Below are positions 6,485-60,067 of a stretch of DNA of 64,000 nucleotides, in pieces. The DNA is taken from positions 1 to 64,000 of the forward strand of contig JAIBAP010000020.1 in NCBI GenBank assembly GCA_019695115.1. Direction: 5' to 3'. The notes under the pieces were generated by a model. It was not told where the DNA came from and did no database searches. It saw only the letters and a list, made by a program, of their open reading frames with translations. Position 1 is the stretch's first letter. Every line of letters starts with the position of its first letter. The position numbers and the translations under genes are program-made. The DNA is from Caldilineales bacterium (GTDB lineage Bacteria > Chloroflexota > Anaerolineae > J102).

Positions 6485-7636
6485 GTGAGCCTTCTCTTTC
6501 CTACCGCCGAATCACCCGCTGCGGCGGGGATGTCTGCCGGCGGCTTGCAGGCGGTCGCCGCCCTGTTCGATGCCCACCTGGCCGCAGGGTTGCATCCGGG
6601 TGCGCACCTGTTGGTCATTCGGCGCCGGCAGATCGTCTGCGAGCGCTACGCCGGCCTGGCCGACCCTCGTCGCCGGCGGCCGGTACGGCCCGACACCATC
6701 TGGCTGCTCTTCAGCGCCACCAAACCCTACACCGCCGTGGCTGTGCTGAAACTGGCGGTCGAGGGCAGGATCGATCTCGATGCGCCTGTGGCTCGCTACT
6801 GGCCGGCCTTTGCCCAAAACGGCAAGGCGGAGATCACCGTCCGGCAGGTGCTCAGCCATCGCGCCGGACTGCCCCACGGCAAGATCAGCCGCCAGCCGTG
6901 GTACTGGCCGAGCTGGCGGCTGTGCACCCGCGCCATCGAGCAGATGCGGCCCGACACTCCCCCCGGCCAGGAGGTGGCCTATCACGCCTTGACCTTTGGC
7001 TGGATCTTGGGCGAGTTGGTGCGGCGGGTCGATGGCCGCTCCTTGCGTCGCTATCTGACCGACGAGTTGTTCGGGCCGGCGGGTTGGCGCCACACCTATC
7101 TTGGCCTGCCCGCTGAGGCCGGGGTCTGGGAGCGGCGCAACAGCGTGGCTGCGATCGACCCGGACCCGGACCTGCTTCAGAGCGCCTTCGTCGCCAACCA
7201 TCGTCTCTTCCGTCGTGCGCCCATCCCTGCCGGCAGCGGTCACAGCACCCTCTACGAGCACGCCGCCTTCTATCAGATGTTGATCGACGGCGGGGTGTGG
7301 GACGGTCGCCGGCTACTATCGCCGGCCGTTGTCGATCTGCTGACGACGCCCACCAATCCCGACCCCGGCCAGATGGACCTCGTTCTGGGCAAGCCAACGC
7401 GCTGGGCGCATGGCGTCAGCCTGGGCGGGCCGCCGCGCCGAGGTTTTGCCTCGTTCATGGGCCGATCCAGCAGCCCGCGCACCTTTGGTCATGGCGGGCT
7501 GCGTTCGTTGGCCGCCTGGGCCGACCCCGACCGGCAACTCATCTGCCTCTATTTCACCAATGGGCTGTTGAGCGCACAGGGGTCGGACGAGCGTAACATC
7601 GAGATGAGCGACGCGGTGTGGGCGAGTGTGGTTTGA
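6485..7636 (+). CDS. Beta-lactamase-fold serine hydrolase
   Basis: A penicillin-binding-protein/class C beta-lactamase-like hydrolase of ~383 residues. FSATKPYTAVAV gives the SxxK nucleophile motif, and the following VRQVLSHRAGLPHG is the usual landmark. A YHALTFGWILGELV segment stands where the Tyr general base is found, and FGHGGLRS gives the C-terminal HxG. No signal peptide is evident, so a cytoplasmic esterase/peptidase of the EstB type is as likely as a secreted enzyme. The start is uncertain: GTG 6485 (chosen, with a -10 six nt upstream), TTG 6455 or ATG 6530. It is divergent from the envelope operon and convergent with the SGNH gene. Confidence 0.9.
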   Translation: MSLLFPTAESPAAAGMSAGGLQAVAALFDAHLAAGLHPGAHLLVIRRRQIVCERYAGLADPRRRRPVRPDTIWLLFSATKPYTAVAVLKLAVEGRIDLDAPVARYWPAFAQNGKAEITVRQVLSHRAGLPHGKISRQPWYWPSWRLCTRAIEQMRPDTPPGQEVAYHALTFGWILGELVRRVDGRSLRRYLTDELFGPAGWRHTYLGLPAEAGVWERRNSVAAIDPDPDLLQSAFVANHRLFRRAPIPAGSGHSTLYEHAAFYQMLIDGGVWDGRRLLSPAVVDLLTTPTNPDPGQMDLVLGKPTRWAHGVSLGGPPRRGFASFMGRSSSPRTFGHGGLRSLAAWADPDRQLICLYFTNGLLSAQGSDERNIEMSDAVWASVV

Positions 7637-7646
7637 GGGGGGCTGG

Positions 7647-7692
7647 GTTCCGTGTTGCGTGTTCCGTGTACCGTGATGCGTATGCTGGCGTG
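7647..7692. repeat. GTGnnnC heptanucleotide repeats
   Basis: Successive 7-nt words of the type GTGTTGC, GTGTTCC, GTGTACC and GTGATGC follow the serine-hydrolase stop. This is one locus of a family found at about ten places in the window. Confidence 0.75.
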
Positions 7693-7724
7693 GGGTGGCT
7701 TGCTGTAGCCCGATCTTGACCAGC

Positions 7725-7864
7725 GATGGCGGAGTCCGCACCCCCCGGTGCGGCGCGTTCGATGGCGGAGTCCGCACCCCCCGGTGCGGCGCGTTCGATG
7801 GCGGAGTCCGCACCCCCCGGTGCGGCGCGTTCGATGGCGGAGTCCGCACCCCCCGGTGCGGCGC
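7725..7864. repeat. Four tandem 36-bp hairpin units
   Basis: Units start at 7725, 7761, 7797 and 7833, each 36 bp and identical apart from the truncated last one (~32 bp). Each contains CCGCACC-CCCC-GGTGCGG, a perfect 7-bp stem. The array lies between two convergent genes, so transcripts from both sides would fold into serial hairpins. There are no spacers between units, so it is not a CRISPR array. Confidence 0.9.
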
Positions 7865-9219: not shown

Positions 9220-11130
9220 TCAACGCAGGGTGCGCACATCGCCCTCGCGCCGGGTGATGCGGATGGCGTCGAGGTGTTCGAGCAAGGCCAGGGCATATTT
9301 GCGGCTGGTTTCGAAACGGTCGCGCAGGTCGCCGACGGTGATCTGGCCGCGGGCCTGGATCGTCTCGCGCACGCCCGCCAGCAAGACGTCGTAGGCGGCC
9401 CGGTCGAAGACGACGTCGGGCGCGACCCGCACCAGGATTCCTTGCTCCAGCAAGGCGTCGAAGACCTCGTCGCTCACGACTTCCAGACACTGTTTGCTGC
9501 TGGGGCTGTTGTAGGGCGCGGCCCGGAAACTCGCCAGCAGTTTGTCCACCGCGGTTTGCTGGGCGGGTGAGAAGCGGGGGCTGAAAGCGGGCGACGACAG
9601 CAGGGCGCTCCGCTCGACCACAACGGCTTCGGCCACGGCGCGGGCGATGACGCCGTTGAACACCTTTGCCGACCACCCCGATTTGGGCTGCACCCGCGCC
9701 CTCATCTCCTCGCGCGGCATACCCAGCCGGAGGGGATTGGCCTGGTGGAAGGCCCGCAGCAGGTCCTGGATCCGGCCGCGCAGGCTCGCCCAGCCGGTGG
9801 GCGTGATCAAGGGCGAATTCGGGTCGCCCGGCTCAAGCTGCTGCACCCGGCCTGCGGCCAACAGCCCGGCCAGGAGGACGGGAGCCTGGTCGGCGGGGAC
9901 TTTGGCCGCGGCCAGGGCCAGGTCGGCGGGCAGGGGGCCTTGCTGCCCGATGGCGGCCTCGAGCAGGTCGGCGGGACTGCCGCGCAGCAGGGTCTCTAGC
10001 TGGGCGAAGACCTCTGGCCGGCGGCGGCGATGCTGGCGGCGTGGGGTTGGGTCGGCGACCAGCCCGCCGCCCAGGGTGTTGCTGGGCGAAGGCCGGCGGA
10101 GGATGAAGTGGTCGTTGCGGGCCAGAACGAGCGGGTGCTCAAGCTCGATCTGCGCCCAGGCCGAATGGCCGGGCGCGAGGGCGTCGTTTTCGAGCAGGCG
10201 CAGGCGGCCCGGCGACTCGGCGGCGCCGCTGTGGAAGGCGATCGCCAGGCCGTGTTCGAGCGGCGCCGGCGCTCCGACCAGGGCGCGCAGCCGTACATCC
10301 ACCCGCAAGGTCGGCCGCAACAGGCCGGGAAAGGTGAGCACCTGGCCGCGGTGGAGTTGGTCGGGGTGGAGGCCGCTGAGGTTGACGGCCACGCGCGAGC
10401 CGGGCCGGGCGACATCCAACCTGGTCTTGTGGGTTTGCAGGCCGCGGATGCGGGCGCGCAGGTCGCCGGGGAGCACGACCACCTCGTCGCCGACCCGCAG
10501 GCTGCCATCCAGCAGCGTGCCGGTGACGATGGTGCCAAAGCCGGCGATGGTGAAGACGCGGTCGATGGGCAGCCGCGGGCGACCCAGGTCGGGGCGGTCG
10601 GGCGCGGTGGCCAGCACCGCCGCCAGGGCGCGGGTCAAATCAGGCAGACCCTGCCGCGTGTGCGCCGAAACGGGGAGGATGGGCGCCGCGGCGAGGCTGG
10701 TGGGTTTCAGCACCGCGGCGACCTCCTCCCTCACCAATTCCAGCCAGTCGGGGTCATCGACGAGGTCGCTTTTGGTGAGGGCAATGACGCCGCGGGGGAT
10801 GTCGAGCAGGTCGAGGATGTCGAGATGCTCGCGCGTCTGCGGCATCACGCCTTCGTCCGCCGCCACGACGAAAAGGGCGGCATCGACGCCGCCCACCCCG
10901 GCCAGCATGTTCTTGATGAAGTCGATATGTCCCGGCACATCGACGATCCCCACCGTCTCGCTCCCCCCGCCCGCCGTCGCGTCTGGCAGCGTCATCCAGG
11001 CAAAGCCCAGGTCGATGGTCATCCCGCGCTCCTGTTCTTCGCGCAGGCGGTCGGGATGGACGCCGGTCAGGGCCTGGACGAGGGCCGATTTGCCGTGATC
11101 GACGTGGCCGGCGGTGGCGATGACTTTCAT
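9220..11130 (-). CDS. selB: Selenocysteine-specific elongation factor SelB
   Basis: A 636-residue GTPase that delivers Sec-tRNA(Sec) to the ribosome at SECIS-marked UGA codons. G1 is GHVDHGKS, switch I is RGMTIDLGFAW, G3 is DVPGH and G4 is TKSD. EF-Tu-like domains 2 and 3 follow (VFTIAGFGTIVTGTLLDG), then C-terminal winged-helix repeats (DEVFDALLEQGILVR, TVGDLRDRFETSRKYALALLEHLD). The start ATG overlaps the coiled-coil gene's stop by 4 nt. selA, selC and selD are not in this window. Its presence implies selenoproteins elsewhere in the genome. Confidence 0.96.
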   Translation of the reverse strand: MKVIATAGHVDHGKSALVQALTGVHPDRLREEQERGMTIDLGFAWMTLPDATAGGGSETVGIVDVPGHIDFIKNMLAGVGGVDAALFVVAADEGVMPQTREHLDILDLLDIPRGVIALTKSDLVDDPDWLELVREEVAAVLKPTSLAAAPILPVSAHTRQGLPDLTRALAAVLATAPDRPDLGRPRLPIDRVFTIAGFGTIVTGTLLDGSLRVGDEVVVLPGDLRARIRGLQTHKTRLDVARPGSRVAVNLSGLHPDQLHRGQVLTFPGLLRPTLRVDVRLRALVGAPAPLEHGLAIAFHSGAAESPGRLRLLENDALAPGHSAWAQIELEHPLVLARNDHFILRRPSPSNTLGGGLVADPTPRRQHRRRRPEVFAQLETLLRGSPADLLEAAIGQQGPLPADLALAAAKVPADQAPVLLAGLLAAGRVQQLEPGDPNSPLITPTGWASLRGRIQDLLRAFHQANPLRLGMPREEMRARVQPKSGWSAKVFNGVIARAVAEAVVVERSALLSSPAFSPRFSPAQQTAVDKLLASFRAAPYNSPSSKQCLEVVSDEVFDALLEQGILVRVAPDVVFDRAAYDVLLAGVRETIQARGQITVGDLRDRFETSRKYALALLEHLDAIRITRREGDVRTLR

Positions 11131-12347
11131 GACCCGCTGAGTCTGGCCTCTTCGTGTTGTTTGATGATGGTCTGGCGCTGGCCGGTCAGCTTCTGCACCT
11201 CATCCAGCCATTTCTGCGCCGCTGTGAGCTGGGTCTGACCCTGGGCATCGACATAGCGCCAGAAGAATTGCAGCAGCTTGTCGTGGAACCCAAGCTGCTG
11301 CACGATGGCGGGGAAGCGGTCGCGCAGGTCGGTGTTGACTTTTTCCTGCTGATCCCGCTGGTATTCCCATTCCAGCGCCTGTTTCTGCATCCGTTTTTCG
11401 TGGTCGGCCACAAAGACATCCAGCTGTTTGCGATGCCGTTCCTCGGCCAGCCGCTGCAGCTCGGCCACCTGCGCCTGCTCGCGCTGGATTTGCTCCTGGA
11501 AGCGGGTGAGGGTGGCGGCGCCGCGCTTCACCTCATCGTTGGTGACGGCGTAGTCCTGCAAGCGCAGCCGCTGCTCCTCCACCACGGCTTTATTGGCCTC
11601 GAAGGCCGCCGCCCATTCCTTCATCTGGCGCTGGCGGTCGACATCGGCCAGCTTGAGCGATTCGATGAACTGTTCCTGGGTGTGTTTGAGGTTTTCGACC
11701 ACCGGCGGCAGGGCCTGGGTCTGGCTTTCGATCTTCTGCTGCTTCTGTTCCAACAGTTGCAGCTTACTACTGGCTTCTTCCAGCCGCTTGAATAGTTCGA
11801 CGTTCTCTTGCTGTAACTGGACGATGCGCTTGTTGTCGTGGCTGCGTTGCTCGGTCAGGTAGGGGATGCTGCGGGTGCGCTCCTCGATGTCTTTGCTCAC
11901 CGAGCCTATGTCTTGCCGCAGGGTGACGGCCGTCTCACTCAGGCGTTTGTCCTCGGCCTTGCGCACCACCAGCTCTTCCTCGATCGGGCGCAGACGCCCC
12001 AGTTCTTTGCGCATTTCTCCTAGCCCACGGGTATAGGTCTCGCGGTCGGCCATGCGCAGGCGCTCGGTCTCGCGCTGGGCCTTGCCCATCTCCTCGGCCT
12101 GGTTGTTGACCATCAAGGTCACTTCGTTCTTGAGGTTTTGCAGCGCCTGCTCGATCTGGTTGAAACGACCCAACTGAGTTTGGGTGCTGGCAAGACGAGC
12201 TTCCAGTTCTTTGATGCGCCGGGCCTGATCTTGCAGGTCATTGGTCTGGCTTTCCAGCCGCTGCTGCAACTTGGCGATTTCGGAGCGGTCACGGCGATGC
12301 TGTTCGTCGAGCCAGGTGACCATTTGGGCGAGTTGGGTGGTGTCCAT
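11127..12347 (-). CDS. Long coiled-coil protein of unknown function
   Basis: A 406-residue, highly charged protein that is almost entirely heptad-patterned coiled coil (for example IAKLQQRLESQTNDLQDQAR and VQLQQENVELFKRLEEAS). It has no signal peptide, membrane segment or recognisable enzyme motif. It begins MDTTQLAQMVTWLDEQHRRD. The stop overlaps the selB start in a TCATG arrangement, so the two are probably co-translated, though no functional link is known to me. A structural or scaffold role is a guess. Confidence 0.8.
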   Translation of the reverse strand: MDTTQLAQMVTWLDEQHRRDRSEIAKLQQRLESQTNDLQDQARRIKELEARLASTQTQLGRFNQIEQALQNLKNEVTLMVNNQAEEMGKAQRETERLRMADRETYTRGLGEMRKELGRLRPIEEELVVRKAEDKRLSETAVTLRQDIGSVSKDIEERTRSIPYLTEQRSHDNKRIVQLQQENVELFKRLEEASSKLQLLEQKQQKIESQTQALPPVVENLKHTQEQFIESLKLADVDRQRQMKEWAAAFEANKAVVEEQRLRLQDYAVTNDEVKRGAATLTRFQEQIQREQAQVAELQRLAEERHRKQLDVFVADHEKRMQKQALEWEYQRDQQEKVNTDLRDRFPAIVQQLGFHDKLLQFFWRYVDAQGQTQLTAAQKWLDEVQKLTGQRQTIIKQHEEARLSGS

Positions 12348-12359: not shown

Positions 12360-12531
12360 GTGTTGCGTGGTGCGTGATGAGTGACGAGTGAGGCGTGAAA
12401 CGTGAGGCGTGTTGCGTGTTGCGTGATGAGTGACGAGTGAGGCGTGAAACGTGAGGCGTGTTGCGTGTTGCGTGATGAGTGACGAGTGAGGCGTGAAACG
12501 TGAGGCGTGGTGCGTGAGGCGTGAGGCGGAG
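12360..12531. repeat. GTGnnnC heptanucleotide array
   Basis: About 24 consecutive 7-nt words with constant GTG: GTGTTGC, GTGGTGC, GTGATGA, GTGACGA, GTGAGGC, GTGAAAC. A seven-word block is repeated nearly three times. No coding signal is present. It fills the stretch upstream of the coiled-coil gene. Confidence 0.9.
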
Positions 12532-12596: not shown

Positions 12597-12602
12597 ATTA
12601 TA
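12597..12602 (-). promoter_or_regulatory. Extended -10 for the coiled-coil/selB operon
   Basis: The minus strand reads TGTGC-TATAAT, a consensus -10 with the TG extension, just after the GT2 stop and ~250 nt upstream of the coiled-coil gene. The -35 is weak. The long leader would contain the heptanucleotide array. Confidence 0.45.
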
Positions 12603-12620: not shown

Positions 12621-13544
12621 TCAGCGCAGGCGCGAGGCCAGAACCTGGCGGTAGGCGGCCATGCGCCGCCGGCGCAGGTCGCGCTTGTGCCCCAGCAGCC
12701 ATTTGGCCGCCTCGCGCAGCCACTGCCAGACGAACGTCGCCAGCAGCCAGGCCCGCAGACAGCCCGCCGCCAGCCGTCCGTGATAGTTGCGCGTATAGCG
12801 CACGCGGCTGCTGAAGAAATGGATGTGCCGGGCCGCCACCACCTGCTCGCTGGAGCGGCCTTCGTAGTGCATCACCTCGGCTGCCGGATGGTAGATGACC
12901 TGCCAGCCTGCCGCCGCCGCCCGCCGGCACCAGTCCAGCTCCTCACTATACATAAAAAAGCCTTCGTCCAGTCCCCCCACCTGCTCGTAGACCTGCCGCC
13001 GCACGAACATGGCTGCGCCGACAACCCAATCGACCGCCTGCGTCTCCTCGGGCGAGCGGTCGGCCAGGTAGAAGCGCCCGAACCACGGCAGCCCCGGCCA
13101 GGCTTCCTGGACGATGGTGCTCTCGGTGAACAGGGTGAGCAGGGTGGGGAAGCGCCGGCGGCTGGGCTGGATGCTGCCATCGGCATAGCGCAGCCGCGGG
13201 CCAAGGATCCCCACCTGCGGGTGCGTTTCCAGGTAGCGCCGGAGTTCGAGCAGGGCGCCGGGGCGCACCTCGGTGTCGGGGTTGAGCAGGAAGAAGTATT
13301 CGCCGCGCGCCACTGCCAGCCCCTGGTTGTTCCCTCCCGTGAAGCCGCGGTTCTCCTGGTTGGCGATGACCTGCACCTCTGGGAAGCCAGCCCGCACTGC
13401 CGCCACCGTCCCGTCCTGGCTGGCATTGTCGACGACGATGATCTCGACCTCCGTTCCCTCGGCTTCCTGCCGCAGGTTGGCCAGGCAGCGCAGCAGCAGG
13501 TCGCGCACATTCCAGGAGACGATGATGACGGAGGTCAGGGGCAT
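12621..13544 (-). CDS. Family 2 glycosyltransferase
   Basis: A 307-residue GT-A enzyme of the same subfamily as the one ending at 3554. It shows SVIIVSWNVRDLLLRCL, IIVVDNASQDG, FFLLNPDTEVRPGA with the metal-binding acidic motif, and DEGFFMYSEELDWCRR. The final ~45 residues contain a hydrophobic/amphipathic helix (AWLLATFVWQWL) and a basic tail that may attach the enzyme to the membrane. The ATG at 13544 is preceded by purine-rich GGAGGAGGG. The open frame continuing to 13850 is translated repeat DNA and was excluded. Confidence 0.92.
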   Translation of the reverse strand: MPLTSVIIVSWNVRDLLLRCLANLRQEAEGTEVEIIVVDNASQDGTVAAVRAGFPEVQVIANQENRGFTGGNNQGLAVARGEYFFLLNPDTEVRPGALLELRRYLETHPQVGILGPRLRYADGSIQPSRRRFPTLLTLFTESTIVQEAWPGLPWFGRFYLADRSPEETQAVDWVVGAAMFVRRQVYEQVGGLDEGFFMYSEELDWCRRAAAAGWQVIYHPAAEVMHYEGRSSEQVVAARHIHFFSSRVRYTRNYHGRLAAGCLRAWLLATFVWQWLREAAKWLLGHKRDLRRRRMAAYRQVLASRLR

Positions 13545-13562: not shown

Positions 13563-13713
13563 GGTGTGTGTTCCGTGTTGCGTGAAACGTGAGGCGTGAG
13601 GCGTGAAACGTGAGGCGTGAAACGTGAGGCGTGAAACGTGAGGCGTGAGGCGTGAAACGTGAGGCGTGAAACGTGAGGCGTGAGGCGTGAAACGTGAGGC
13701 GTGAGGCGTGAGG
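13563..13713. repeat. GTGAGGC/GTGAAAC heptanucleotide array
   Basis: About 21 words of 7 nt, mostly alternating GTGAGGC and GTGAAAC, with GTGTTCC/GTGTTGC at the left end. It occupies the gap between the GT2 start and the polyprenyl synthase stop. Confidence 0.9.
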
Positions 13714-13740
13714 CGGGCGGGGGGCGGGGCGCCGTTCGGT

Positions 13741-13849
13741 TTGCATTCCCTTCGCATCCCCTTCGCATCCCCTTCGCATCCCCTTCGCGTCCCTTCGCGT
13801 TCTTCGCGGATCACAAAGTGGATCACAAAGTGGATCACAAAGCGGATCA
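13741..13849. repeat. 11-nt and 12-nt tandem repeats
   Basis: About five copies of CCCCTTCGCAT (11 nt) are followed by degenerate CTTCGCGT units and then four copies of GGATCACAAAG(T/C) (~12 nt). Nothing else is seen between 13545 and 13850. Confidence 0.8.
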
Positions 13850-14821
13850 CTAGTTACGCCGTGCGATGACGTAGTGGGCCACATCGGCCAGGGCTGCGCG
13901 GTAGGGCGAGGGCGGGAAGGCGGAGAGGTCGGCAACGGCCAGGTCGATGAAGCGCTCGGCCTCGGCTCGGGCCTGGGCGATGGCCTCGGACTGGCGGATG
14001 AGTTGCACCGCTTCGGTCACCACTTCGTCGCCGCTGCGCTGACCATCCACCAGCGCCACCAGCTGGTCGCGTTGCTCAGGCTGCTGGATGAAGTAGTAGA
14101 CCGGCAGGGTGATGATGCCGGCGCGGAGGTCGGAGCCGGCCGGCTTGCCCAGCACATCGGCCTCGGCGACGAAATCGAGGATGTCGTCCACGATCTGGAA
14201 GGCCATGCCCAGGTTGTAGCCGTAGGAACGCAGGTTTTCTTCGTCGTCGGCGCCGGCATCGCCCAGCACCGCCGCGGCGCGGGCGGCCACCTCGAACAGG
14301 GCCGCCGTCTTGCCGTAGATGCGGTCGTAGTAGCCTTGTTTGGGCTGGCCCCAGTCGCGGGCGGTGAAAGCCTGGCGCAGTTCGCCATCGACGATCACAC
14401 CCAGGGTCTCGGCAAAAAGCCGGATCACGCGCGGGTGCTCGGTCTCGGCGGCCAGGGCGGCGGCGCGGGCGAAGAAGAAGTTCCCGGCCAACACGGTGCC
14501 GCCCGGCGTCCAGACGGCGTTCAAGGTCGATTGGCCGCGGCGCAGCAGGGCGCCATCGATCACATCGTCGTGGACGAGGGTGGCGGAGTGCAGGGCCTCC
14601 ACCGCCGCCGCCAGGCTGAGCAGTTGCCGCTGCCGCGTGGCCGGGAACAGATGGGCCGCCAGCAGCGCCACCGTGGGCCGCACCCGCTTGCCGCCGCTCC
14701 GCACCAGCCCGCCCAGGGCCTCGGCCAGGGGCGCGTAGCTGCTGCCGACTTTGGCCAGGATGAGTTTTTCGACCTCGGCCAGTTCGTTGGCAATCAGGGC
14801 TTGGGCGGTGGAGATGGACAT
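13850..14821 (-). CDS. Polyprenyl diphosphate synthase
   Basis: A 323-residue trans-isoprenyl diphosphate synthase. GGKRVRP binds diphosphate, [15 protein letters not shown] is the first Asp-rich motif, and [13 protein letters not shown] the second. These enzymes condense IPP units onto an allylic primer to make the quinone side chain or a long-chain carrier. Small residues before the first Asp motif ([11 protein letters not shown]) fit a long-chain enzyme, but product length cannot be set by eye. It lies among glycan-precursor genes and has repeat arrays on both sides. Confidence 0.94.
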
Positions 14822-14923
14822 TGGAGATTGGGGATTGGGGATTGGTTATTGGAGATTGGTTATTGGAGATTGGTTATTGGAGATTGGGGATTGGAGATTG
14901 GAGATTGGAGATTGGTTATTATT
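14821..14923. repeat. ATTGGnn heptanucleotide array
   Basis: About 14 words of 7 nt, ATTGGAG, ATTGGGG and ATTGGTT, begin at the ATG of the polyprenyl synthase. The composition is much more AT-rich than the flanks. Confidence 0.9.
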
Positions 14924-14967: not shown

Positions 14968-15028
14968 TCACGCATCACGCTTCACGCAACACGCAACACG
15001 GAACACGCAACACGGAACCCGGAACCCG
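14968..15028. repeat. CAC-word heptanucleotide repeats
   Basis: The complementary orientation of the GTGnnnC family: words such as GCATCAC, GCAACAC and GGAACAC in tandem, just after the TatD stop. Confidence 0.8.
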
Positions 15029-15030: not shown

Positions 15031-15825
15031 TCACAGACCAAAGAACGAGCGGGCGGCGGCGGTGGTGAGGGCGGCGGCTTGGTCGAGGGGCGTCTGCCAC
15101 AGCTCGGCCAGCCTGGCGGCAGTCAGGCGCACGTAGGCCGGCTCGTTGCGTTGGCCGCGGTGTGGGTGCGGCGTCAGGTAGGGGGCGTCGGTTTCCAGCA
15201 GGAGGCGGTCGGGGCGCAGGTGGCGGGCCAGGTCATGCAGGTCGCGGGCATTCTTGAACGTCAGCGGCCCGGCCAGGCCGAGCACGAAGCCCCACCCATA
15301 GGCTTCCTCGGCCATCGCCAGGTCGCCAGAGAAGCTGTGCAGCACGCCAGGGAAAGGCCGGCCGGCCAGGGGAGAGCCAGGCAGCCGCCGGTGCACCCAG
15401 GCCGCCAACTCGGCCCGCACATCGTCATGGGCCTCGCGGTCGTGGATGATCACCGGCAATCCCAGTTCGGCGGCCAGGTCGAGCTGCTGGCGGAAGACCG
15501 TCTTCTGCAGTTCGACCGGCGTCTGCTGCCAATAATAATCCAGCCCGATCTCGCCGATGCCCACCGTTTTGGGATGCCCGGCCAGCCGCCGCAACTCGGT
15601 CAGCGTCTCTGGCCCCAGGCTGCCGGCGTCATTCGGGTGGATGCCAACGGTGGCATAGACCTGCGGGTATCGCTCGGCCAGCGCCACCGCCGCCCGGCTG
15701 TGCGCCAGATCGATGCCGATGGTGACGATGGCCTCGACGCCCGCCCCTCGCGCTCGCTCTAGCACCAGGTCGAGATCAGGCTCGAAGTGGGGGAGGGTGA
15801 GATGGCAGTGGCTGTCGATGAGCAT
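15031..15825 (-). CDS. tatD: TatD-family metal-dependent DNase/hydrolase
   Basis: A 264-residue TIM-barrel hydrolase. [14 protein letters not shown] gives the HxH metal motif, [11 protein letters not shown] the Glu ligand, [11 protein letters not shown] and GVLHSFSGD the His ligands, and [22 protein letters not shown] the Asp and the family C-terminal signature. Family members are Mg-dependent 3'-5' exonucleases acting in DNA quality control. The ATG at 15825 was chosen because the family begins at M-h-D-S/T-H-C-H; the upstream extension is repeat-derived. Confidence 0.95.
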
Positions 15826-15835
15826 GTTTATGGCA

Positions 15836-15882
15836 TGTTCCGAGTTCCGGGTTCCGAGTTCCAAAGTCTCCCGGTCTCCCGT
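15836..15882. repeat. GTTCCGn heptanucleotide and GTCTCCCG repeats
   Basis: Four 7-nt words GTTCCGA/GTTCCGG/GTTCCAA followed by GTCTCCCG units fill the gap between tatD and the phosphohexomutase stop. Confidence 0.7.
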
Positions 15883-17340: not shown

Positions 17341-18596
<1,256 letters not shown>

Positions 18597-21894: not shown

Positions 21895-21936
21895 AGGGTT
21901 TGCTCCTTAGAAAGACGGGGAAGGGGGAAGGGTCGC

Positions 21937-22021
21937 AAGTCGCAAGTGGCAGGTGGCAGGTCGCAGGCACGCCTCACGCAACACGCAACACGCAACACGC
22001 CTCACGCATCACGCCTCACTC
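21937..22021. repeat. CGCAAGT/GGCAGGT and CAC-word heptanucleotide repeats
   Basis: Five 7-nt words CGCAAGT, CGCAAGT, GGCAGGT, GGCAGGT, CGCAGGC are followed by tandem words CAACACG, CCTCACG and CATCACG up to the ahcY stop. Two heptamer families are joined at one locus. Confidence 0.85.
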
Positions 22022-22023
22022 CC

Positions 22024-23356
<1,333 letters not shown>

Positions 23357-23379: not shown

Positions 23380-24366
23380 TTAGGGTCTGGGGATCAGGTC
23401 TTGGGATCGCCGCTGCAAATCGTCGGTCACGGCGTCGTCGCCGTAGTTTTGGCGATAGCGGGCGATGAAATCAGTGATGGTATAGGAATGGTTCTGGGTG
23501 CCGACTTGTTCGATGACATAGACGGCGGCCACATTGGCCAGCCTCAAGACGCCGGGCCAGCCGTAGTCGCGCTCCAGCCCGGTGAGCAGCCCGGCGCGGA
23601 AGGCATCGCCGACGCCGGTCGGCTCGACCAGGGCGCGGGCGTGGGCGGCGGGGATGTGGTGGATGTCGTCGCGGGCGTAGACGCTGGCGCCATCTGGCCC
23701 GCGCGTCACCACCAGCGCCCCCACATGTTGCAGAAGCTCGGCTTCGTCCAGCCCCGATAGCCGTTTGGCCATCTCGAGCTCGTAGTCGTTGACCGTCAGC
23801 ACAGCCGCGCCCTCCATGCTCTCCATCAGTTCGGCCCGGTCGATGCGGGCCAGCTGCTGGCTGGGGTCATAGACGAAGCGGATGCCCAACTGTCGGCATT
23901 CGCGGGCGTATTTCACCATCGCCTGCGGGTCGTTGGGCGAGATGATCACCCAGCCGACGCCCTCGCGCGGGAGATCGTGAAAACTCAACTCGCGTGCCCG
24001 CGCCATGGCGCCGGTGTGAAACGAGGCGATCTGGTTGTGGTCGAGGTCGGTCATCACCGTGAAGGTGGCGGTGAATTCGTCTGCAAAGGCGACGGTGAGC
24101 GAGGTATCGACGCCAACCTGCTCAAGCCATTGGCGATAGTCGTCGAAATCGACGCCGGCGGTGCCCATCAGCCGCGGGCGGTTGCCCAACAACGCCAGGT
24201 TGTAGGCGATGTTGGGGGCGCAGCCGCCGCGGTGTCGCTCTTTGGAATCGACCAGGAAGCTGACCGAGAGCTTGTCGCTGCGGTCGGCCAGGATGTGCTC
24301 GCGGAAATGGCCGGGGAAGTGCATCAGAAAATCCCAGGCGATGGAGCCGGTGACGATGATGGACAT
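23380..24366 (-). CDS. PfkB-family kinase, probable adenosine kinase
   Basis: A 328-residue ribokinase-fold enzyme. GGCAPNIAYNLALLG is PfkB signature 1, and VEPTGVGDAFRAGLL is signature 2 with the catalytic Asp (GVGD in place of GAGD). Bacterial adenosine kinases of this fold exist, and placement directly upstream of ahcY would let it phosphorylate the adenosine released there, pulling the reversible hydrolase forward. That assignment rests on context. Ribokinase or another nucleoside kinase is possible. Confidence 0.85.
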   Translation of the reverse strand: MSIIVTGSIAWDFLMHFPGHFREHILADRSDKLSVSFLVDSKERHRGGCAPNIAYNLALLGNRPRLMGTAGVDFDDYRQWLEQVGVDTSLTVAFADEFTATFTVMTDLDHNQIASFHTGAMARARELSFHDLPREGVGWVIISPNDPQAMVKYARECRQLGIRFVYDPSQQLARIDRAELMESMEGAAVLTVNDYELEMAKRLSGLDEAELLQHVGALVVTRGPDGASVYARDDIHHIPAAHARALVEPTGVGDAFRAGLLTGLERDYGWPGVLRLANVAAVYVIEQVGTQNHSYTITDFIARYRQNYGDDAVTDDLQRRSQDLIPRP

Positions 24367-24373: not shown

Positions 24374-24500
24374 ATTGCGTGTTGCGTGTTGCGTGTTGCG
24401 TGTTCCGTACGGTTTCTCGCTACTTCTACCTACTTACTGATTACTGATTACTGATTACTGATTACTGACTACTGATTACTGATCACTGATCACTGATTAC
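24374..24500. repeat. GTGTTGC and GATTACT heptanucleotide arrays
   Basis: Four words GTGTTGC/GTGTTCC (24375-24405) precede about ten words GATTACT with variants GACTACT and GATCACT (24424-24500). Nothing else is seen in the gap between the kinase start and the mtnA stop. Confidence 0.85.
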
Positions 24501-24549
24501 TACTTACTCCCTACCATATCGAGGATGACGAGTTGGATGGGCACGACGG

Positions 24550-25635
24550 TCAGGCTTGTCGCGCCTGTGCGGCGCGGATGCGGGCCTCGGCGCGGGCTTT
24601 GGCCGCGGCCAGGCTCTCGGTGAAGGGTGGGTAGCAGACGCCCTCTTCGGTGATGATGCCGGTGAGATAGCGGTGGGGGGTCACATCGAAGGCCGGGTTG
24701 TAGACGGGCGCATCGTCGGGCGCGATCTGCGTCTCGCCGACCAGGGCCACTTCCTCCCAGCCGCGCTCCTCGATGGGGATGTGGTCGCCGTCGGGCAGGT
24801 CGAGGTCGATGGTAGAGGTGGGGACGACCGAGTAGCAGGGGATGCCGTTCTCTTTGGCCACCACCGCCAGTTTGTAGCTGCCGATCTTGTTGGCCACATC
24901 GCCGTTGGCCGCCACCCGGTCGGCGCCATACAGCACCACATCCACCTTGCCCTGGCGCATCAGCAGCCCGGCGGCGTTGTCGGCGATCAGGTGCATGGGG
25001 ATGCCGTCGCGCATCAATTCCCAGGCCGTCAGCCGGGCGCCCTGCAGACGCGGTCGCGTCTCGTCCACCCACACATGGATGTTCTTGCCGGCCTCGTGCG
25101 CGGCCCGCACCACCCCCAGCGCCGTGCCGTAATCCACCGCCGCCAGCGAGCCGGTGTTGCAGTGGTGGAGGATGTGGGCGTTTTGGGGGATGACGGCGGC
25201 GCCGTAGCGCCCCATCCGCCGGTTGATTTCGACATCCTGATCGGCCAGCCGCTGCGCTTCGGCCAGCAACGCCGCCCGCATCTCGTCTGGCTTCGCCCCA
25301 CCTTCGGCCAGTTCCTCGGCCAGGGCCAGCAAGCGGGCGGTGGCCCAGGCCAGGTTGACGGCGGTGGGCCGGGCGGCGTCGAGCGTGGCTTTGGCCCGGC
25401 GCAGGTCTGCCAGCAATTGGCTGGCATAGTGCGCCTCGCTCTGTTGGGCGGCCAGGGCCATGCCAAAGCCGGCGGTGGCGCCGATGGCCGGGGCGCCGCG
25501 CACCACCATGTCGGTGATGGCGCTCGCCACAGCGGCTACGGCCTCGAAGTCGGCTATCACATATTCCAGTGGGAGCAGGCGCTGGTCGATCATGCGGACT
25601 TTGCCTGCTTCCCACCATACGGTGCGGTCGCTCAT
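24550..25635 (-). CDS. mtnA: Methylthioribose-1-phosphate isomerase
   Basis: A 361-residue enzyme of the methionine salvage pathway that converts 5-methylthioribose-1-phosphate to the ribulose form. It shows [18 protein letters not shown], the catalytic Cys in HHCNTGSLA, the catalytic Asp in [19 protein letters not shown], and the [11 protein letters not shown] segment. Length fits the family. It is preceded by a SAM-I riboswitch and a rho-independent terminator, so it is expected to be off when SAM is plentiful. It completes the local methyl-cycle cluster. Confidence 0.96.
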
Positions 25636-25689: not shown

Positions 25690-25734
25690 ACGCTAGGGCT
25701 GGAGCCTTCGCTTGCGAATGGTTGGCCATTCGCC

Positions 25735-25846
25735 CTCATCTTCCAGGTGGTTGCCACCTGCCGGAGTTGGCACCGCTCCGAGCGGCTGAGCCGCTGGTCG
25801 GTTGCCGGGGGTTCGTCGGGCCGGTCCCTCGCCCCCTCTGGATGAG
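25735..25846 (-). promoter_or_regulatory. SAM-I (S-box) riboswitch aptamer
   Basis: On the minus strand, P1 pairs CTCATC (25841-25846) with GATGAG (25735-25740). Inside are CAGAGG..GCGAGGGACCGGCCC, the GACGAA and CCCGGCAACC of P2/P3, and GGTGCCAACTCCGGCAG of P4/J4, all matching the conserved S-box core. A further hairpin (GCGAATGG-CCAA-CCATTCGC, 25714-25733) and the terminator at 25658 follow. It should bind SAM and end transcription before mtnA. Confidence 0.93.
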
Positions 25847-25965
25847 AATCCAGTTGATGTATGTGATTCGAGATGACGGAGATGCAGGTGTGACTGCAAG
25901 CGGGCAGTCTAGCACAGGCGGGCCAGGGTGTCAAAGCTGCCGCGACCGGCAAGTTGCGGCTTTGT

Positions 25966-26558: not shown

Positions 26559-26820
26559 ATCGCTCAAGTGATACATGATTGCAGCCGGCTCGGCCTGCTG
26601 GTGCGAAACCCAAAGCCATGAAATGGGATGGCCTTGAATTTGACTATCCGCCCCGTGTGTGATAGATTCCCTTCCATCAGCATGCGTCGGCCTCCTTCTC
26701 CCGCCGAGCGTGCGCCCCCTCGCCTGTCTTCCCTCTCGCCAATTGGGAAACGGGCGAGCACAAGCCCATCTGCCAGCTCTCGCCCGCGCCATCCGTCGAT
26801 GCGCGGGCTTTTCGCTTCCG

Positions 26821-26853
26821 AGGTGCGACGCACGTCCGACGTGCGTCGCACCT
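26821..26853. repeat. GTGCGACGCAC-family palindrome
   Basis: AGGTGCGACGCACGT, loop CCG, then the exact complement. It lies between higA and the large exported protein gene, 52 nt before the best ATG of the latter. The stretch 26560-26904 has no other feature. Confidence 0.85.
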
Positions 26854-26904
26854 ACACCACCAACACCTCCCCAATCCCAGTTCTCACCCATAAGCGAGGA
26901 AAAC

Positions 26905-29900
26905 ATGTTTACCCCCCCCCCCCATCTAACTATACGAAGTCAAAATTGACGAAAGTTGCTGTTTTGGGGTTGATTGTGGTGTTTTTGTTGGTGGGGGTGG
27001 TGATGGAGAGAGGGGAAGCGGTGCGGGCGGAGAGTGGTAAGACACAGAGGGGAAAAACACAGAGTATAGCTGTTGATTTTGCCGACATGATACGGGATCC
27101 ATCAATGCAAGATGGCATGATGATTGCTTTGCAGGACAAACCATCGGATATACTCACGGGGACACAGTTTGCTGTCCTCTCACTTCAGTCGGGTTCCGGT
27201 TGGTTTCTTGCTTTCGTTGCATCTTTGGATGGGCCTTACACCGACGTAGAACATGTTGGGGCTGGAAAGGCCGGAGCATTATTCGTAGGAGTACAGGATG
27301 CTACCGGAGATTGGCGAGTTGCTGTTGCTGGAACCTCTTACTTCTCTGATCTGCTGGCACTGATTTCAACAGCCGAGCTACCTGCAGATGCCAAAATGTA
27401 TTTGGATCCGCTGGCGCCGTTCAGCGTGCAAGAGACTGAATACAAATTCCCCTGGCCCGCTGGCGATTGGGAGTATCGTGGAGGCTGGCACTCCTCGGCG
27501 CTAGATATTGGAACACGGGGATCGGATAAGCGCGTTCTTGCCGCAGCAGGTGGAGTGGTCACTGGGATTTGCGACACCGGGACAGTGAGCACAAATGTGA
27601 CGATACGGCATGACGACGGAAAAACGTTACAATACTTTCATATTGATAAATCAACGCGTCCATCCAATGTCTCATTGCACGCTAGGGTCGAACGCGGCTA
27701 CGTGCTTGGCAGTCTTCTTCCAGGTACCTGGGGGCCAGATGGCTGTGGTGTCACTCAAGGCCAGGCCGCCACGAGCGCTCATATCCATTGGGTACTTCCC
27801 ACAAGTGAATCGTTTACCGCAGACGGCTGGACGATTCAGTATCCAGATAGTACCTGGCGCAATGGTGGTCAATCTCGTATCCCCGGTCAGTCGCCATATC
27901 AGACCCTCCCGTCAACAAATAATCCATCAGGCGGCGGCCCCCAAGCCGAACTCTGGTCGCAGGCTGGTTACCAAGGAAACAGGGTCTGGAGCGGCGGCAC
28001 GGGCTTTGACAACGCCCCAAGCGCCAATTCCTTCTCGCTGAAACTGCCTTCGGGCTGGTCGGCCAGGGCATGGCGAGGCGATGATCGTGGTGGTGGAGAC
28101 TCGCGTTGCTGGAGTGAATCTGTGCGCGACCTCACGGACTTCGGCTGGCAGAATGCCATCCAGTCTATCGATGTGTGGGATCATAATGAGTGCGATGGAA
28201 CACCCGGTGATCAAGCCGAACTCTGGTCGCAGGCTGGTTACCAAGGAAACAGGGTCTGGAGCGGCGGCACGGGCTTTGACAACGCCCCAAGCGCCAATTC
28301 CTTCTCGCTGAAACTGCCTTCGGGCTGGTCGGCCAGGGCATGGCGAGGCGATGATCGTGGTGGTGGAGACTCGCGTTGCTGGAGTGAATCTGTGCGCGAC
28401 CTCACGGACTTCGGCTGGCAGAATGCCATCCAGTCTATCGATGTGTGGGATCACAATGAGTGCCCAACCGAGTGCAATCCCAATGCCGATCAGATTGCCC
28501 TCTTTATCGATGGCGGATTCCGCGGGCAGTGTGTGGTCAAAGGCATCGGCGAGTACCCCAATCCCGGCGCTATCGGGCTGCCCAACGACGCCATTTCTTC
28601 CATCAAAGTCGGCGGCAATGTCAAGGCCAGGCTCTGTCGTGATGACAATTTCTCCGGTACATGTGAGGAGTTCACCGGCGATGATACTGACCTGGGCAAC
28701 AACAGCGTCGGCAACGACCAGGTCTCTTCGGCCAAGGTGGAACGTCGCACGTCGCCGCCGGACATTCCTACCCTGCGCAGCCCTGCCAATGGCGCCACCC
28801 TGCGCCCCACCGATACGGTGATCCTCGAGTGGAATGCCTCGGCGCGGGCGACGGAGTATGCAGCCGAGTATTGGCTGCTGTCCTCCGGAGATCGGCAAAA
28901 CTCAGGCCACCAACCGGGTACGAGTTGGAATATCGGCCAGCTCGCAGAGGGTGAATACGCATGGTATGTCGAAGCCTACAATAGCGCGGGGTGGAGTGGT
29001 TGGAGCGAGATCTGGAGATTTACCGTCCAAAGCGCGAACCACCTACCCAATGCTCCGACTTCCCCAAGCCCGCCCATCGGCGCCACTTTGGACGCCATGC
29101 CCCAACTTTGCTGGCAGAACAATGGCGACCCCGACGGCGACCCGGTAGAATTCCGGGTGGATATGTGGACCGCGGGTTATGTTCGCAGTGAGCAAAGCGA
29201 GTGGATAGGCGCCAACTGCTGGCGCCCAACGACGTTGTCAGGAAACGACACCTATAACTGGGTCGTGCGCGTTCGTGATAACAGAGGCGGCGCCGAATCT
29301 TCGCCTGATTGGTCATTCACCGTACGCGATTTGGTTGGGCCTTCACTGACCTTCACCTCGCCAGTCGGCGACGAGCAAACCTACCAGGCTCAGCCCGACG
29401 CCGGAATCGTTGGCTTCCGCATTCAGGCCTCGGATAACGTGGCGGTGTCATCGATTCGCTTCTTCGGGGTTGGCGCGGATGGCAGCATTCAGTTCTTTCC
29501 CACCGAAATCGACTCCACGGATCCCTATACGGCTTACATCAGTACCGGAAGTCTTGGTGTGGGATTGCATCGAATCGGCGCCGAAGCCAGCGACGCGGCC
29601 CAAAACACGGCCGTGAAATACATGAATGTGAATTGGCCTGGCCGCCAGACTTCCACGCCGACGCCAACCGCTATCTTTGGGGCTACCAATACCCCAACAC
29701 CAACGCTTACCCGCACTTTCACCCCAACGGCCACCGGCACAAGACCGGAAGCCTCTCCTACGCCCACCCCCACCCGCACCCCCACCCGTTCCGGCCCCAC
29801 CAACACCCCCACGCCCACTCGCACCCCTGCGCCGGCCTGGGTCTGGGCCTCCGAAGCTGAAAACGCATCGCTCGTCTCACCCATGCTCGCGGCCACGGAC

Positions 29901-31784
29901 GCCGCCGCCTCGTCCTGCGGCTACGTGTACGCCTCGCAAGGAGAGCCAAACGACGGTGCGATCGCATTCTCGTTCAGCGTCAGCGCCCCTGGCAACTACT
30001 ACATCTGGGGCCGCGCCATGGGGCCGACCTACGGCTCCGACTCGTTCTACATGGCGATGGACGGCAACGCCTATGCGACCTTCACCATCCCGATGGGTCC
30101 GAACTGGAACTGGGTGAAAGGACAGAACTATGGCTTGAACGCCGGCGCGCACACCCTCCGCTTCAAAGCACGCGAGCAAGGCGCCCGGTTGGACAAAGTC
30201 ATCATCACCAACCAGGCGGCGTTCACGCCTGGCGCTGGCGATGTGACGTCGTGTGGAACCAACACCCCCACCCCAACGCCTTCCAAGACTCCTTCACCGA
30301 CATCGACGCGCACGCCCATCCTCGGCGCCACCCAAACTCCCACACGCACGCCAACTTCGACCTTCACCGCCACTCCAACGGTAACGAGCACAATAGCGCA
30401 CCGGCCTCCTAATGCGCCATCGCTCATCAGTCCCGTCAATGGCTCTGTTCATTCGACAATGCCTCAGTTGTGTTGGCAAAACAACGGTGATCCTGATGGC
30501 GACACAGTTCAGTTCTGGGTGGATGTATGGACACCTGGCTACTGGCGTGGTGAGCAGAGCGGGTGGATCAGTCAGACATGTTGGCGTCCGACGACTCTAT
30601 CTGGGTCAGATACGTACAACTGGCACGTCGGCGTCAGAGACGCGTATCAACCTGGTCCTCGCTCTCCTGATTGGGATTTCGTGGTTGTCGAACCGGCGAC
30701 ACCGACACCAACTCCTACTCGCACCGTAACCCGTACCTTCACACCCACCGCCACCCCAACGGCAACGAGCACCCCCAGTCAGCCCAGGCCAGAACTTCGG
30801 GCGACGGCAAGCGGGTCGCACTCCATCTCCCTAACCTGGACGCCAATCGCAGGAGCGCAGGGCTATCGCATCTGGCGCACGTTCTCAGGTCTCCCTTGGA
30901 CGCAAGTTGCCATCCTGGGCAGTCAGGTCGCCGCCTACGAGGACGCGAATGGCTTGGGGTGCGGCGTCGAAGCCTTCTACATCGCCGAACCGTTCGGCGG
31001 AGGCGGCTCTTTCCCGGCGAGCAATTATGCTTTCGCTACCACGTGGGGCTGTTGGCCGGGCGCTGATCCGCGGGCTATTGCTCCTGCTGGCGTCACGGCC
31101 CAATTCCAGTCGCCGCACGCCATCCGTCTGAATTGGAGCGACCGCACCAACGACGAATCGAGCTTCAAAATCATGCGCACCACCTGGGGCAACATGTGGT
31201 ATCAAGTAGGCGTCGCCGGCGCCAATGCCACTTCTTTCCTCGATACCGAGGTCGGCTGCGGCTATGAGTTCTACTACAAAGTGCGCGCCGAACGCCCCAG
31301 CGATGGCTCTGTCAGCGAATGGGCCTTCACCTCAGCTTCGGCGCCTGCTTGCACAGGCGGCCCCCGCCTGGACAACCCCAGTCCGCTCAGCGTGGGGCAG
31401 GCGACGCGCAACAGCCTGCGCCTACAGTGGCGCAACACCAATCAGGGCCAGACCGCCTACCAGGTTCAGCGCGCCATCTACGGCAGCGGCTGGTATCAGT
31501 TCGACGTGCCGGGCGGGGCGACCACTTCCTACACCGATACAGGCCTGTCGTGTGATACGCGCTACTACTATCGCGTGCGTTCGGTGCGCAACACCGACGG
31601 CGCCTTCTCGGAATGGAGCAACTTCGCCCAACAGAGCACAGCCGCCTGCACCGGCGCCGCGGGTTCTGACGAAGACCACAGCGAATCACCGATGGCGCCT
31701 CAGCCCCCCGCCGACCTGCCCCCGCCCGAAAGCCTGGCTGCGCCCGACATCCTGCCTTTCACTCCGTCACCGACAAAGCGGTAG
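26905..31784 (+). CDS. Large exported M23-like/beta-gamma-crystallin/FN3/CBM protein with start-site frameshift
   Basis: About 1,625 residues. ATG 26905 has a good ribosome site (CGAGGA) but is out of frame with the body across a C12 tract (26912-26923); 13 or 10 C's would restore MFTPPPPSNYTKSKLTKVA and the hydrophobic VLGLIVVFLLVGVV signal segment. Order after that: a LytM/M23-like region (27420-27900; WHSSALDIG and SAHIHW), two nearly identical crystallin-like repeats (27942-28463), a third (28485-28745; LPNDAISS and GNDQVSS calcium-type motifs), FN3/Ig-like modules to 29640, Thr-Pro linkers, a CBM6-like module (29848-30235), and further FN3 modules to 31650. Probably a cell-wall-associated binding protein. 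The open frame upstream of 26905 is read through a palindrome and was rejected. Confidence 0.85.
26912..26923 (+). repeat. C12 homopolymer at codons 3-6 of the large exported protein
   Basis: Twelve consecutive C residues start 5 nt after the ATG. At this length the ATG frame ends at TGA ~40 nt on. One added C, or two removed, opens the 1.6-kb-residue frame. Long homopolymers near start codons are typical slipped-strand phase-variation sites and also typical sequencing errors. Confidence 0.85.
27942..28463 (+). repeat. Near-perfect 270-bp tandem duplication
   Basis: 27942-28193 and 28212-28463 are 252-nt copies, offset by exactly 270 nt, differing by one visible base near the end (CAT/CAC). 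They encode two identical ~84-residue modules beginning QAELWSQAGYQGNRVWSGG and ending SIDVWDHNEC. The silent identity means recent duplication or gene conversion. Confidence 0.95.
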
Positions 31785-35614: not shown

Positions 35615-35623
35615 GTGGAGATT

Positions 35624-35676
35624 GGTTATTGGAGATTGGTTATTGGCGAATCTCCAATAACCAATCTCCAATAACC
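35624..35676. terminator. 23-bp perfect inverted ATTGGnn repeat between convergent genes
   Basis: Arms 35624-35646 and 35654-35676 are exact complements made of ATTGGAG/ATTGGTT heptamers, with loop CGAATCT. It lies between the LysM gene (+) and an epimerase gene (-), so it would form the same hairpin in both transcripts. Confidence 0.8.
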
Positions 35677-35677
35677 A

Positions 35678-36631
35678 TCAACCCTGACTGGGTTGAGATG
35701 ACAACAGCCGGCTGAACCGGGGATCGAGGGTGATGGTGTGGCGCAGGCCCTCGACGATGGTGATGCGGGGTGCATAGTCCAGCAATTGGCTGGCCTTGTC
35801 CAGGTCGGCCATCAGGCGCCCGACCCCGCCGCTCTGCTGGGGATTGTAGAGCAAGTGGGCGCTGCGACTGCTCACGGCCTCGATGTGGTGGACGAGTTGC
35901 TCGACGCTGGTTTCGGCCCCACTGCCCACGTTGATCACCTGCCGGTCTATGTTGGGTTGTTCGCCGGCGCTGATCAACGCATCGACGACATCATCGATAT
36001 AGACATAATCCCTGGTCTGGCGGCCGCTGCCAAAAAGCACCACCGTGCCGCCACTCAGAATCTGATGGATGATCTGCGGCACCACCGGCGGGTAGGCCGG
36101 GGGCAGCGCCTGGCCGGGGCCATAGGCGTTGAAGATGCGCAGGGCCACCGTCTCGATGCCATAGTGGGCGCCCAACGTGAAGACATAATGCTCGGCGGCG
36201 AATTTGCTGACGGCGTAGGGCGTGAGCAACTGCGGGACCACGGTTTCGTCCACCGGCTGGCGTTTCTGATCGCCGTAGATGGTGGCCGACGAGGCCAGCA
36301 CGATCCGGCGCACGCTGACCGCCCGCATCGCTTCCATCAGGGTGACGGCGCCGCCGACATTGACATCGTTGTAGTCGCGCGGGTAAAGGATCGATTGCGG
36401 CAGCGAGACCTTTGCCGCCAGGTGGTAGACGCAATCGACGCCGTGGAGCAACGTCCACAACTTGGGCGCATCCCGCACATCCCCGCGCGTGAACAACACC
36501 CGTTCGTCCAGCGCCGCCGGGTCGCCGGCGCTGAGATCATCGATCACGCGCACATGGCGCCCCGCCGCCGCCAGGCGATTGGCCAGATGGTGGCCGATGA
36601 ATCCGGCGCCTCCTGTAATCAGATAGTTCAT
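35678..36631 (-). CDS. NAD-dependent epimerase/dehydratase (UDP-glucose 4-epimerase-like)
   Basis: A 317-residue extended SDR. GGAGFIGHHLANRL binds NAD, VYHLAAKVSLPQS and LASSATIYG carry the Ser/Thr, TPYAVSKFAAE the YxxxK, and RIFNAYGPGQ the sugar-nucleotide loop. GRQTRDYVYIDDVVDA and INVGSG complete the epimerase pattern. It probably epimerises or reduces an NDP-sugar for surface glycan. The stop is 2 nt from the inverted repeat. A minus-strand TGC-TATACT (-10 at ~36901-36906) lies far upstream, beyond the heptamer array. Confidence 0.9.
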   Translation of the reverse strand: MNYLITGGAGFIGHHLANRLAAAGRHVRVIDDLSAGDPAALDERVLFTRGDVRDAPKLWTLLHGVDCVYHLAAKVSLPQSILYPRDYNDVNVGGAVTLMEAMRAVSVRRIVLASSATIYGDQKRQPVDETVVPQLLTPYAVSKFAAEHYVFTLGAHYGIETVALRIFNAYGPGQALPPAYPPVVPQIIHQILSGGTVVLFGSGRQTRDYVYIDDVVDALISAGEQPNIDRQVINVGSGAETSVEQLVHHIEAVSSRSAHLLYNPQQSGGVGRLMADLDKASQLLDYAPRITIVEGLRHTITLDPRFSRLLSSQPSQG

Positions 36632-36679: not shown

Positions 36680-36835
36680 GCGTGAGGCGTGGGGCGTGAG
36701 GCGTGAAACGTGAGGCGTGAAACGTGAGGCGTGAAACGTGAAACGTGGGACGTGGGGCGTGAGGCGTGAAACGTGGGACGTGAGGCGTGAGGCGTGAGGC
36801 GTGAAACGTGAGGCGTGAAACGTGAGCGCGAAGCA
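36680..36835. repeat. GTGAGGC/GTGAAAC/GTGGGAC heptanucleotide array
   Basis: About 22 consecutive 7-nt words with constant GTG upstream of the epimerase. The array is comparable in length to those at 12360 and 13563. The rest of 36632-36950 has no gene. Confidence 0.9.
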
Positions 36836-39314: not shown

Positions 39315-39329
39315 TGAGGGGGGGCGTTC

Positions 39330-39372
39330 TGTGTTCCGTGTTGCGTGTTCCGTGTTCCGTGGTGCGTCATGT
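39330..39372. repeat. GTGTTCC/GTGTTGC heptanucleotide repeats
   Basis: Five or six 7-nt GTG words after the zinc-ribbon gene's stop. No other feature is seen before 39448. Confidence 0.75.
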
Positions 39373-49090: not shown

Positions 49091-49250
49091 GGGGCAGGTG
49101 GTGGGGGGGCAGGTGGCAGGGGGCAGAGCTTGTCCTGAGTGAAACGAAGGATCGCAAGTCGCAAGTGGCAAGTGGTAAGTCGCAAGTGGCGGATGGCAGG
49201 TGGCAGGTGGCGGATGGCGGGTGGTGGGTGGTGGGTGGCGGATGGGCAAG
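49091..49250. repeat. GGCAGGT/CGCAAGT/GGCGGAT heptanucleotide array
   Basis: 7-nt words GGCAGGT, GGCAAGT, CGCAAGT, GGCGGAT, GGCGGGT and GGTGGGT run upstream of thrH, interrupted once by non-repeat sequence (~49126-49145). Together with 49373-49432 it fills the divergent 378-nt gap. Confidence 0.85.
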
Positions 49251-49378: not shown

Positions 49379-49396
49379 TGCCTTGTTTGCCAGAAA

Positions 49397-49465
49397 GCAA
49401 CAATCAACAATCAACAATCAACAATCAACGGCTTAATCTGCGACCTGCCACTTGCGACCTGCCCC
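49397..49465. repeat. AACAATC and TGCCACT/TGCGACC heptanucleotide repeats
   Basis: Four tandem AACAATC units (49400-49430) are followed by CTGCGAC, CTGCCAC, TTGCGAC and CTGCCC words just before the flavin reductase ATG. This is again two unrelated 7-nt families in one leader. Confidence 0.8.
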
Positions 49466-60036: not shown

Positions 60037-60067
60037 AATGACGTCCACTCCTCACGCCTCACGCCCC

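Follow-up and report, generated by a model that had tools for sequence, protein, structure and literature searches.

Arrays of seven-base words between the genes of a Caldilineales bacterium and their outward orientation at gene ends

Introduction

In a contig of a Caldilineales bacterium, one gap between genes holds a long run of words that begin with GTG and recur every seven bases, which raises the question of what such arrays are, how they are placed with respect to genes, and what keeps them there. The window is the whole stretch of DNA analyzed, 64,000 nt long, and corresponds to contig C20 of a 5.99-Mb draft genome of 135 contigs. The nearest named orthologs point to a Caldilineales-related member of the Chloroflexota. 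Reports of heptamer repeats go back to about 1990 and come from several phyla, and we know of no accepted explanation for them. The original prediction, made from the letters of the window, described GTGnnnC arrays at a number of intergenic loci; other word families, the position at gene ends, the outward polarity and the recent insertion had gone unnoticed in it. Most of the genomic measures given below refer to one species.

Results

Abundance, period and word families

Three consecutive GTGNNNC words occurred 63 times in the window, compared with 0.02 expected (100 dinucleotide shuffles). Genome-wide, there were 1,799 GTGnnnC triplets vs. 51 of the reversed pattern. In 1.26 Mb of sampled sequence, 198 non-coding arrays of period 7 covered 14.3 kb of 142 kb (approximately 10%); in the same 1.26 Mb, periods 5, 6, 9 and 10 yielded 0–1 arrays and period 8 yielded 18, all of the periods 3–6 and 8–13 lying between 0 and 18. 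Real gaps contained 219 arrays and shuffled gaps 0.1, and 141 of 142 GTG runs were outside called genes.

The strict 7-nt array at 12360, with its repeated seven-word block, was confirmed (Table 1), and every other locus that had been listed was recovered, those at 14968, 21966 and 60042 on the minus strand and the last with only approximately three words. The word ending held for the most part: C predominated, and words in A (ATGA, ACGA) were present in the 12360 array and rare elsewhere. GTGnnnC arrays were likewise as described, but they are not the sole family. At least six further families of seven-base words have the same period, so that on the outward strand we distinguish A (GTGnnnC), B (ATTGGnn), C (TCAGTnn), D (GTsGCAr), F (GTTGAyT), G (AGGGAGT) and H (ATTGCGr), of which B, C, D and F are also found in the window. 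Each family combines a fixed core with a few dominant variants, its words differing at fixed positions. The dominant words were GTG followed by AGG, AAA, TTC, TTG or GTG and then C, and ATTGG followed by AG, TT or GG; within family C arrays TCAGTGG and TCAGTAA were dominant, and TCAGTTA was counted once.

Assembly artefact, for which the 135-contig state of the draft might speak, is extremely unlikely. Hundreds of differing arrays are flanked by unique genes inside long contigs, arrays show no enrichment at contig starts (1 of 15), and many relatives with assemblies of their own have arrays of a similar kind; absence from the rest of the genome and from relatives, named beforehand as the sign of an artefact, is the opposite of what was found. 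As a separate observation, the contig starts C1/C2 and C6/C11/C12 of G000 are near-identical, and are probably repeated elements that break the assembly.

Table 1. Heptad arrays in the window, with the gene and promoter-like site that belong to the main array.
Feature	Position	Strand	Remark
Family A array GTGnnn[C/A] (main array)	12360..12528	+	24 words; 49-bp seven-word block, 3.4 copies, 96%
Gene downstream of main array	11127..12347	-	followed by selB (9220-11130)
Promoter-like TATAAT (TGTGCTATAAT)	12597..12602	-	distal to main array
Family A array	7647..7683	+	10 bp past stop of gene 6530-7636(+)
Family A array	13563..13715	+	upstream of start of gene 12621-13544(-)
Family B (ATTGGnn) array	14815..14915	+	overlaps start-side end of gene 13850-14821(-)
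Family A array	14968..15028	-	2 bp past stop of gene 15031-15864(-)
Family B convergent pair	17345..17460		gap 131 bp; 14 bp in syntenic same-genus genome
Family B convergent pair	18463..18592		gap 149 bp; 40 bp in same-genus genome
Family D (GTsGCAr) array	21932..21967	+	
Family A array	21968..22022	-	1 bp past stop of gene 22024-23295(-)
Family A array	24375..24408	+	8 bp upstream of gene 23380-24366(-)
Family C (TCAGTnn) array	24434..24514	-	reads TTACTGA on +
Family B convergent pair	35616..35677		between two stop codons
Family A array	36680..36825	+	upstream of gene 35678-36631(-)
Family A array	39326..39367	+	11 bp past stop of gene 37161-39314(+)
Family D array	49152..49245	+	upstream of gene 48467-49090(-)
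Family F (GTTGATT) array	49395..49429	-	upstream of gene 49469-50002(+); reads AATCAAC on +
Short family A array	60046..60065	-	~3 words; in gap before gene 60068-61117(+)

Repeats of other kinds were also present. A perfect 36-bp tandem repeat (3.9 copies, window 7724-7864) adjoins a heptad array in a convergent gap, and in the gap of the 36680 array a 19-bp unit, TCAGGCTGACCTGACTTTC, is repeated perfectly in tandem (6.3 copies, window 36951-37070). Tandem repeats of an 11-mer (GCATCCCCTTC) and a 12-mer (GGATCACAAAGT) stand beside the 13563 array (window 13743-13850), and a 270-bp tandem duplication (99% identical, window 27942-28463) is contained in the long ORF 26628-31784. Period-8 arrays of ACAAGTAG-type words were seen at G000 C1:4560, C1:131362 and C1:135170; in the examples read they run outward from stops, and the one at C1:4560 contains the stop codon. 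Heptad arrays within ORFs (G000 C1:188707-188819, C1:178402 and 182154) encode seven-residue repeats in linkers (for example, QSPITNN and TEHGTRN), and two zinc-ribbon/cyclase paralogs have the same layout of in-ORF heptad array with a different word order.

The main array and its gene

Read on the minus strand, the main array is in the 5′ leader of the adjacent gene, for which no Pfam match was found. Since a TATAAT lies on the same strand on the far side of the array, the array stands between a promoter-like site and the start codon, and would make up most of a leader of approximately 240 nt. Rfam covariance models gave no family match at the array; their sole match in the window was a SAM riboswitch (RF00162, 85.8 bits) at 25733-25848 (-), upstream of gene 24550-25635(-). 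In SKW222 (L030), another Caldilineales genome, the orthologous gap holds a convergent pair made of different words (GGACGAT), with the same TGTGCTATAAT element beyond it; thus, the same type of structure arose there in another dialect.

Position and polarity at gene ends

Arrays crowd gene boundaries, mostly at distances of up to approximately 15 bp, and in some cases the stop codon itself lies in the array. The G/T-rich strand reads outward from the gene both at starts and at stops, whatever the direction of the gene. Among arrays with one boundary within 15 bp and the other more than 40 bp away, 109 were outward and 5 inward (starts, 51:1; stops, 58:4). Combined, families A, B, C, D and G gave 101 outward and 1 inward. 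Family F was the exception, with 4 near-boundary arrays that read inward, two of which adjoin a gene missed by the caller. Of the 4 stop-side exceptions, two immediately precede a zinc-ribbon/cyclase gene missed by the caller, and a third may likewise result from a missed gene. Tandem-gap arrays within 20 bp of both neighbors showed no preference (6:6). The polarity was repeated in a second genus (G003; 29:5, families A–C, within 30 bp), and in IMG/VR contigs, which are of mixed origin, GTG arrays next to stops were 16:1 outward.

Gene calls came from a simple caller based on codon usage, which in a benchmark of 50 kb of E. coli K-12 recovered 43 of the 46 stops and placed 33 starts exactly; no period-7 arrays were found in that stretch. 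Miscalled starts would weaken the polarity rule, not produce it. The idea that arrays serve to provide stop codons was considered and rejected, because 33 of 56 outward stop-side arrays follow the rule with few or no stops on their outward strand. Eight genes had arrays at both ends, 4 of them of the same family (2.1 expected), numbers too small to bear on gene cassettes with matching ends.

These orientation counts largely refute a neutral process in which heptamers expand by slippage wherever coding constraint is absent and orientation is unselected. Copy number is variable, blocks are duplicated and dialects are lineage-specific, all as such a process would have it, and polymerase slippage has been put forward as the source of a heptamer excess (work cited in PMC4692102). 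The polarity, however, is near-perfect when measured against the gene rather than the strand, and many genera have the same few word cores; we consider purely neutral expansion unlikely.

Neighboring arrays in tandem gaps followed the order G-then-C in 47 cases and C-then-G in 2. This convergent order could reflect selection of the two arms as RNA stem-loops serving as terminators, processing signals or mRNA-stabilizing elements, and both arms of a gap were of the same family more often than expected (16 of 32 vs. 9.3; P = 0.009). Shuffling the words within arms, however, left the predicted fold as strong (25 pairs, mean z = +0.18), half of the pairs combine unrelated families, and single arrays obey the rule too, which makes intergenic hairpins improbable. 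The order would also arise if an enzyme or mobile element added seven-base words at 3′ ends in gaps, writing both arms G-strand first irrespective of gene direction. For such polar writing speak the equal bias in same-family and different-family arms, the unmirrored word order of the arms (mean z = 0.18), and the 14-bp operon gaps that became pure convergent array pairs. Still, single arrays with long unique sequence beyond them follow the rule (43:3), which break-and-extend would not predict, and no element, target-site duplication or enzyme was found; we judge this process decidedly unlikely. Its variant with breaks extended at both 3′ ends was rejected as a misfit with the single arrays. 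We attach little credence to one dedicated process that writes words outward from gene ends in a dialect specific to each genome, which in place of slippage with selection would explain the cross-phylum cores together with the polarity.

Recent arrival and dialects among relatives

Eighteen conserved adjacent gene pairs are common to this genome and to the same-genus genome G001; 8 of them bear arrays here and none does in G001. All 8 gaps are array-free in G001, where they measure 4–111 bp, and the median gap is 186 bp here vs. 41 bp there. An operon-like cluster in the window (sugar-nucleotide enzymes, polyprenyl synthase and others) has gaps of 131, 209, 149 and 305 bp, compared with 14, 28, 40 and 41 bp in G001. 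Because the syntenic same-genus gaps are short and array-free, the arrays are recent, even within operons. Repeats that enter operon gaps of 14–40 bp and add roughly 50–260 bp bear on the evolution of operons and leaders.

GTG triplet arrays occur in many relatives, which share word cores and differ in dialect. ATTGGnn is represented by ATTGGAG and ATTGGTT here and by ATTGGAT and ATTGGGT in G003, G004 and G006; G003 also uses TCAGTAT, and TCAGTnn is dominant in G003 and G015. In the sampled contigs of G047 and G036 no period-7 arrays were found, and GTG triplets were present elsewhere in both genomes. No description of such repeats in Chloroflexota was found in the open-access literature.

Predicted structure of the two strands

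Predicted folding energy (MFE per nt) was −0.19 for the outward G/U-rich strand and −0.05 for the A/C-rich complement. The RNA structure anticipated in the original prediction was only half borne out: one of the two strands has almost no structure, and the word order of paired arms is unmatched for pairing. At start-adjacent arrays, the predicted unpaired probability between −20 and +15 was 0.725 in the native orientation and 0.407 when the array was flipped (native higher in 43 of 44), a difference that follows in part from word composition; array-free control starts gave 0.50 and 0.43. SD-like motifs preceded 7 of 59 array-adjacent starts and 499 of 958 other starts. Leaders without arrays were C-skewed too (GC skew −0.16 in this genome and −0.13 in G001), so that G is avoided in the leaders of this lineage in general. 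As the A/C-rich sense strand is nearly unstructured and native starts are predicted to be open, we read the polarity at starts as the outcome of selection that keeps leaders open.

The stop side behaved differently. A G-arm after a stop lowers the predicted accessibility of the next gene's start (0.56 native vs. 0.69 without the G-arm), and 3′ flanks without arrays are slightly C-rich. On these folding predictions, the start of the next gene appears to account for none of the stop-side polarity. A structured G/U-rich tail after the stop would fit protection or definition of the mRNA 3′ end.

Discussion

We favor, at a probability of about one half, the reading that these are non-coding arrays of the STRR or heptameric-SSR type with a lexicon of several families, which slippage and copying would generate and selection acting on untranslated mRNA would filter. 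In a Caldilineales-related lineage of Chloroflexota, word families with a conserved core and few permitted variants would have expanded; the arrays would arise and change by 7-nt slippage and by duplication of larger blocks, and would spread by copying from one intergenic gap to another. Spread by slippage and copying is suggested by the dialects and the recent arrival. An array beside a gene would become an untranslated part of its mRNA, as the promoter-like site suggests for the main array, and selection on that mRNA would decide which orientation survives. Upstream of a start, only arrays with the A/C-rich, nearly unstructured strand as sense would be kept, and the initiation region would stay accessible; after a stop, those kept would have the more structured G/U-rich strand as sense. 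The structural asymmetry between strands offers a simple reason, open to test, for the polarity at starts but not for that at stops.

The type of repeat is known already. New are the broader lexicon, a rule independent of quadruplexes and, for half of that rule, a reason that can be tested. In scale, the genome adds a large case to this bacterial repeat type, with gaps between genes filled by seven-base words.

The STRR heptanucleotides of heterocystous cyanobacteria, reportedly described by Mazel in 1990 and in later work, are degenerate tandem words at many intergenic loci. The likeness to them drawn in the original prediction is apt, since unit length, degenerate words and intergenic position are common to both; the phylum and the dominant words differ, and the likeness is one of form rather than of demonstrated common descent.

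Similar in placement are the GGGNATC repeats of Xanthomonas and Nostoc, for which quadruplexes were proposed and no role in gene regulation was found (Rehm et al. 2015, PMC4692102). Like the arrays described here, those repeats (GGGAATC and GGGGA(T/C)T) have seven bases, are intergenic and lie within 50 bp of ORFs; their G strand is antisense before starts and sense after stops, and they overlap stop codons, form convergent pairs and are rare between divergent genes (PMC4692102). GGGGATT is a rotation of ATTGGGG, a minority word here (20 of approximately 240 ATTGGnn-type words). The shared polarity and this word would favor a function through G-quadruplexes or other non-B DNA. Most words here, in contrast, are unable to form quadruplexes, with runs of at least three G in at least four units lacking: the dominant words are GTGAGGC, GTGAAAC, GTGTTCC, GTGTTGC, ATTGGAG and ATTGGTT, and GTGAAAC, GTGTTCC, GTGTTGC, ATTGGTT and TCAGTnn, which do not supply four runs of three G, obey the rule nevertheless. 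Because several unrelated non-quadruplex words show the same polarity, the rule is broader and the G-quadruplex, the leading idea so far, is no general explanation; as the function of the present arrays it is very unlikely. Several families with internal variable positions coexist here, unlike the GGGNATC repeats, and syntenic same-genus gaps are array-free, whereas 90% of sites are kept between two Xanthomonas genomes (PMC4692102).

TAACTGA direct repeats lie mostly just upstream of starts in marine Beggiatoaceae, Cyanobacteria and Bacteroidetes (MacGregor 2015, PMC4679880). They too are heptamers, and their reverse complement, TCAGTTA, fits family C with identical polarity; TAACTGA itself is nearly absent here. 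The sets in Maribeggiatoa are short (2–6 copies, PMC4679880), whereas the arrays here flank stops as well and comprise many families. Borg tandem repeats (PMC9879509) are similar in that many are recent gap repeats, some start within a gene end, and in-ORF copies encode linkers of the disordered type. Borg units are perfect, A-rich and of varied length (PMC9879509), whereas the present arrays combine a constant 7-nt unit with variable words.
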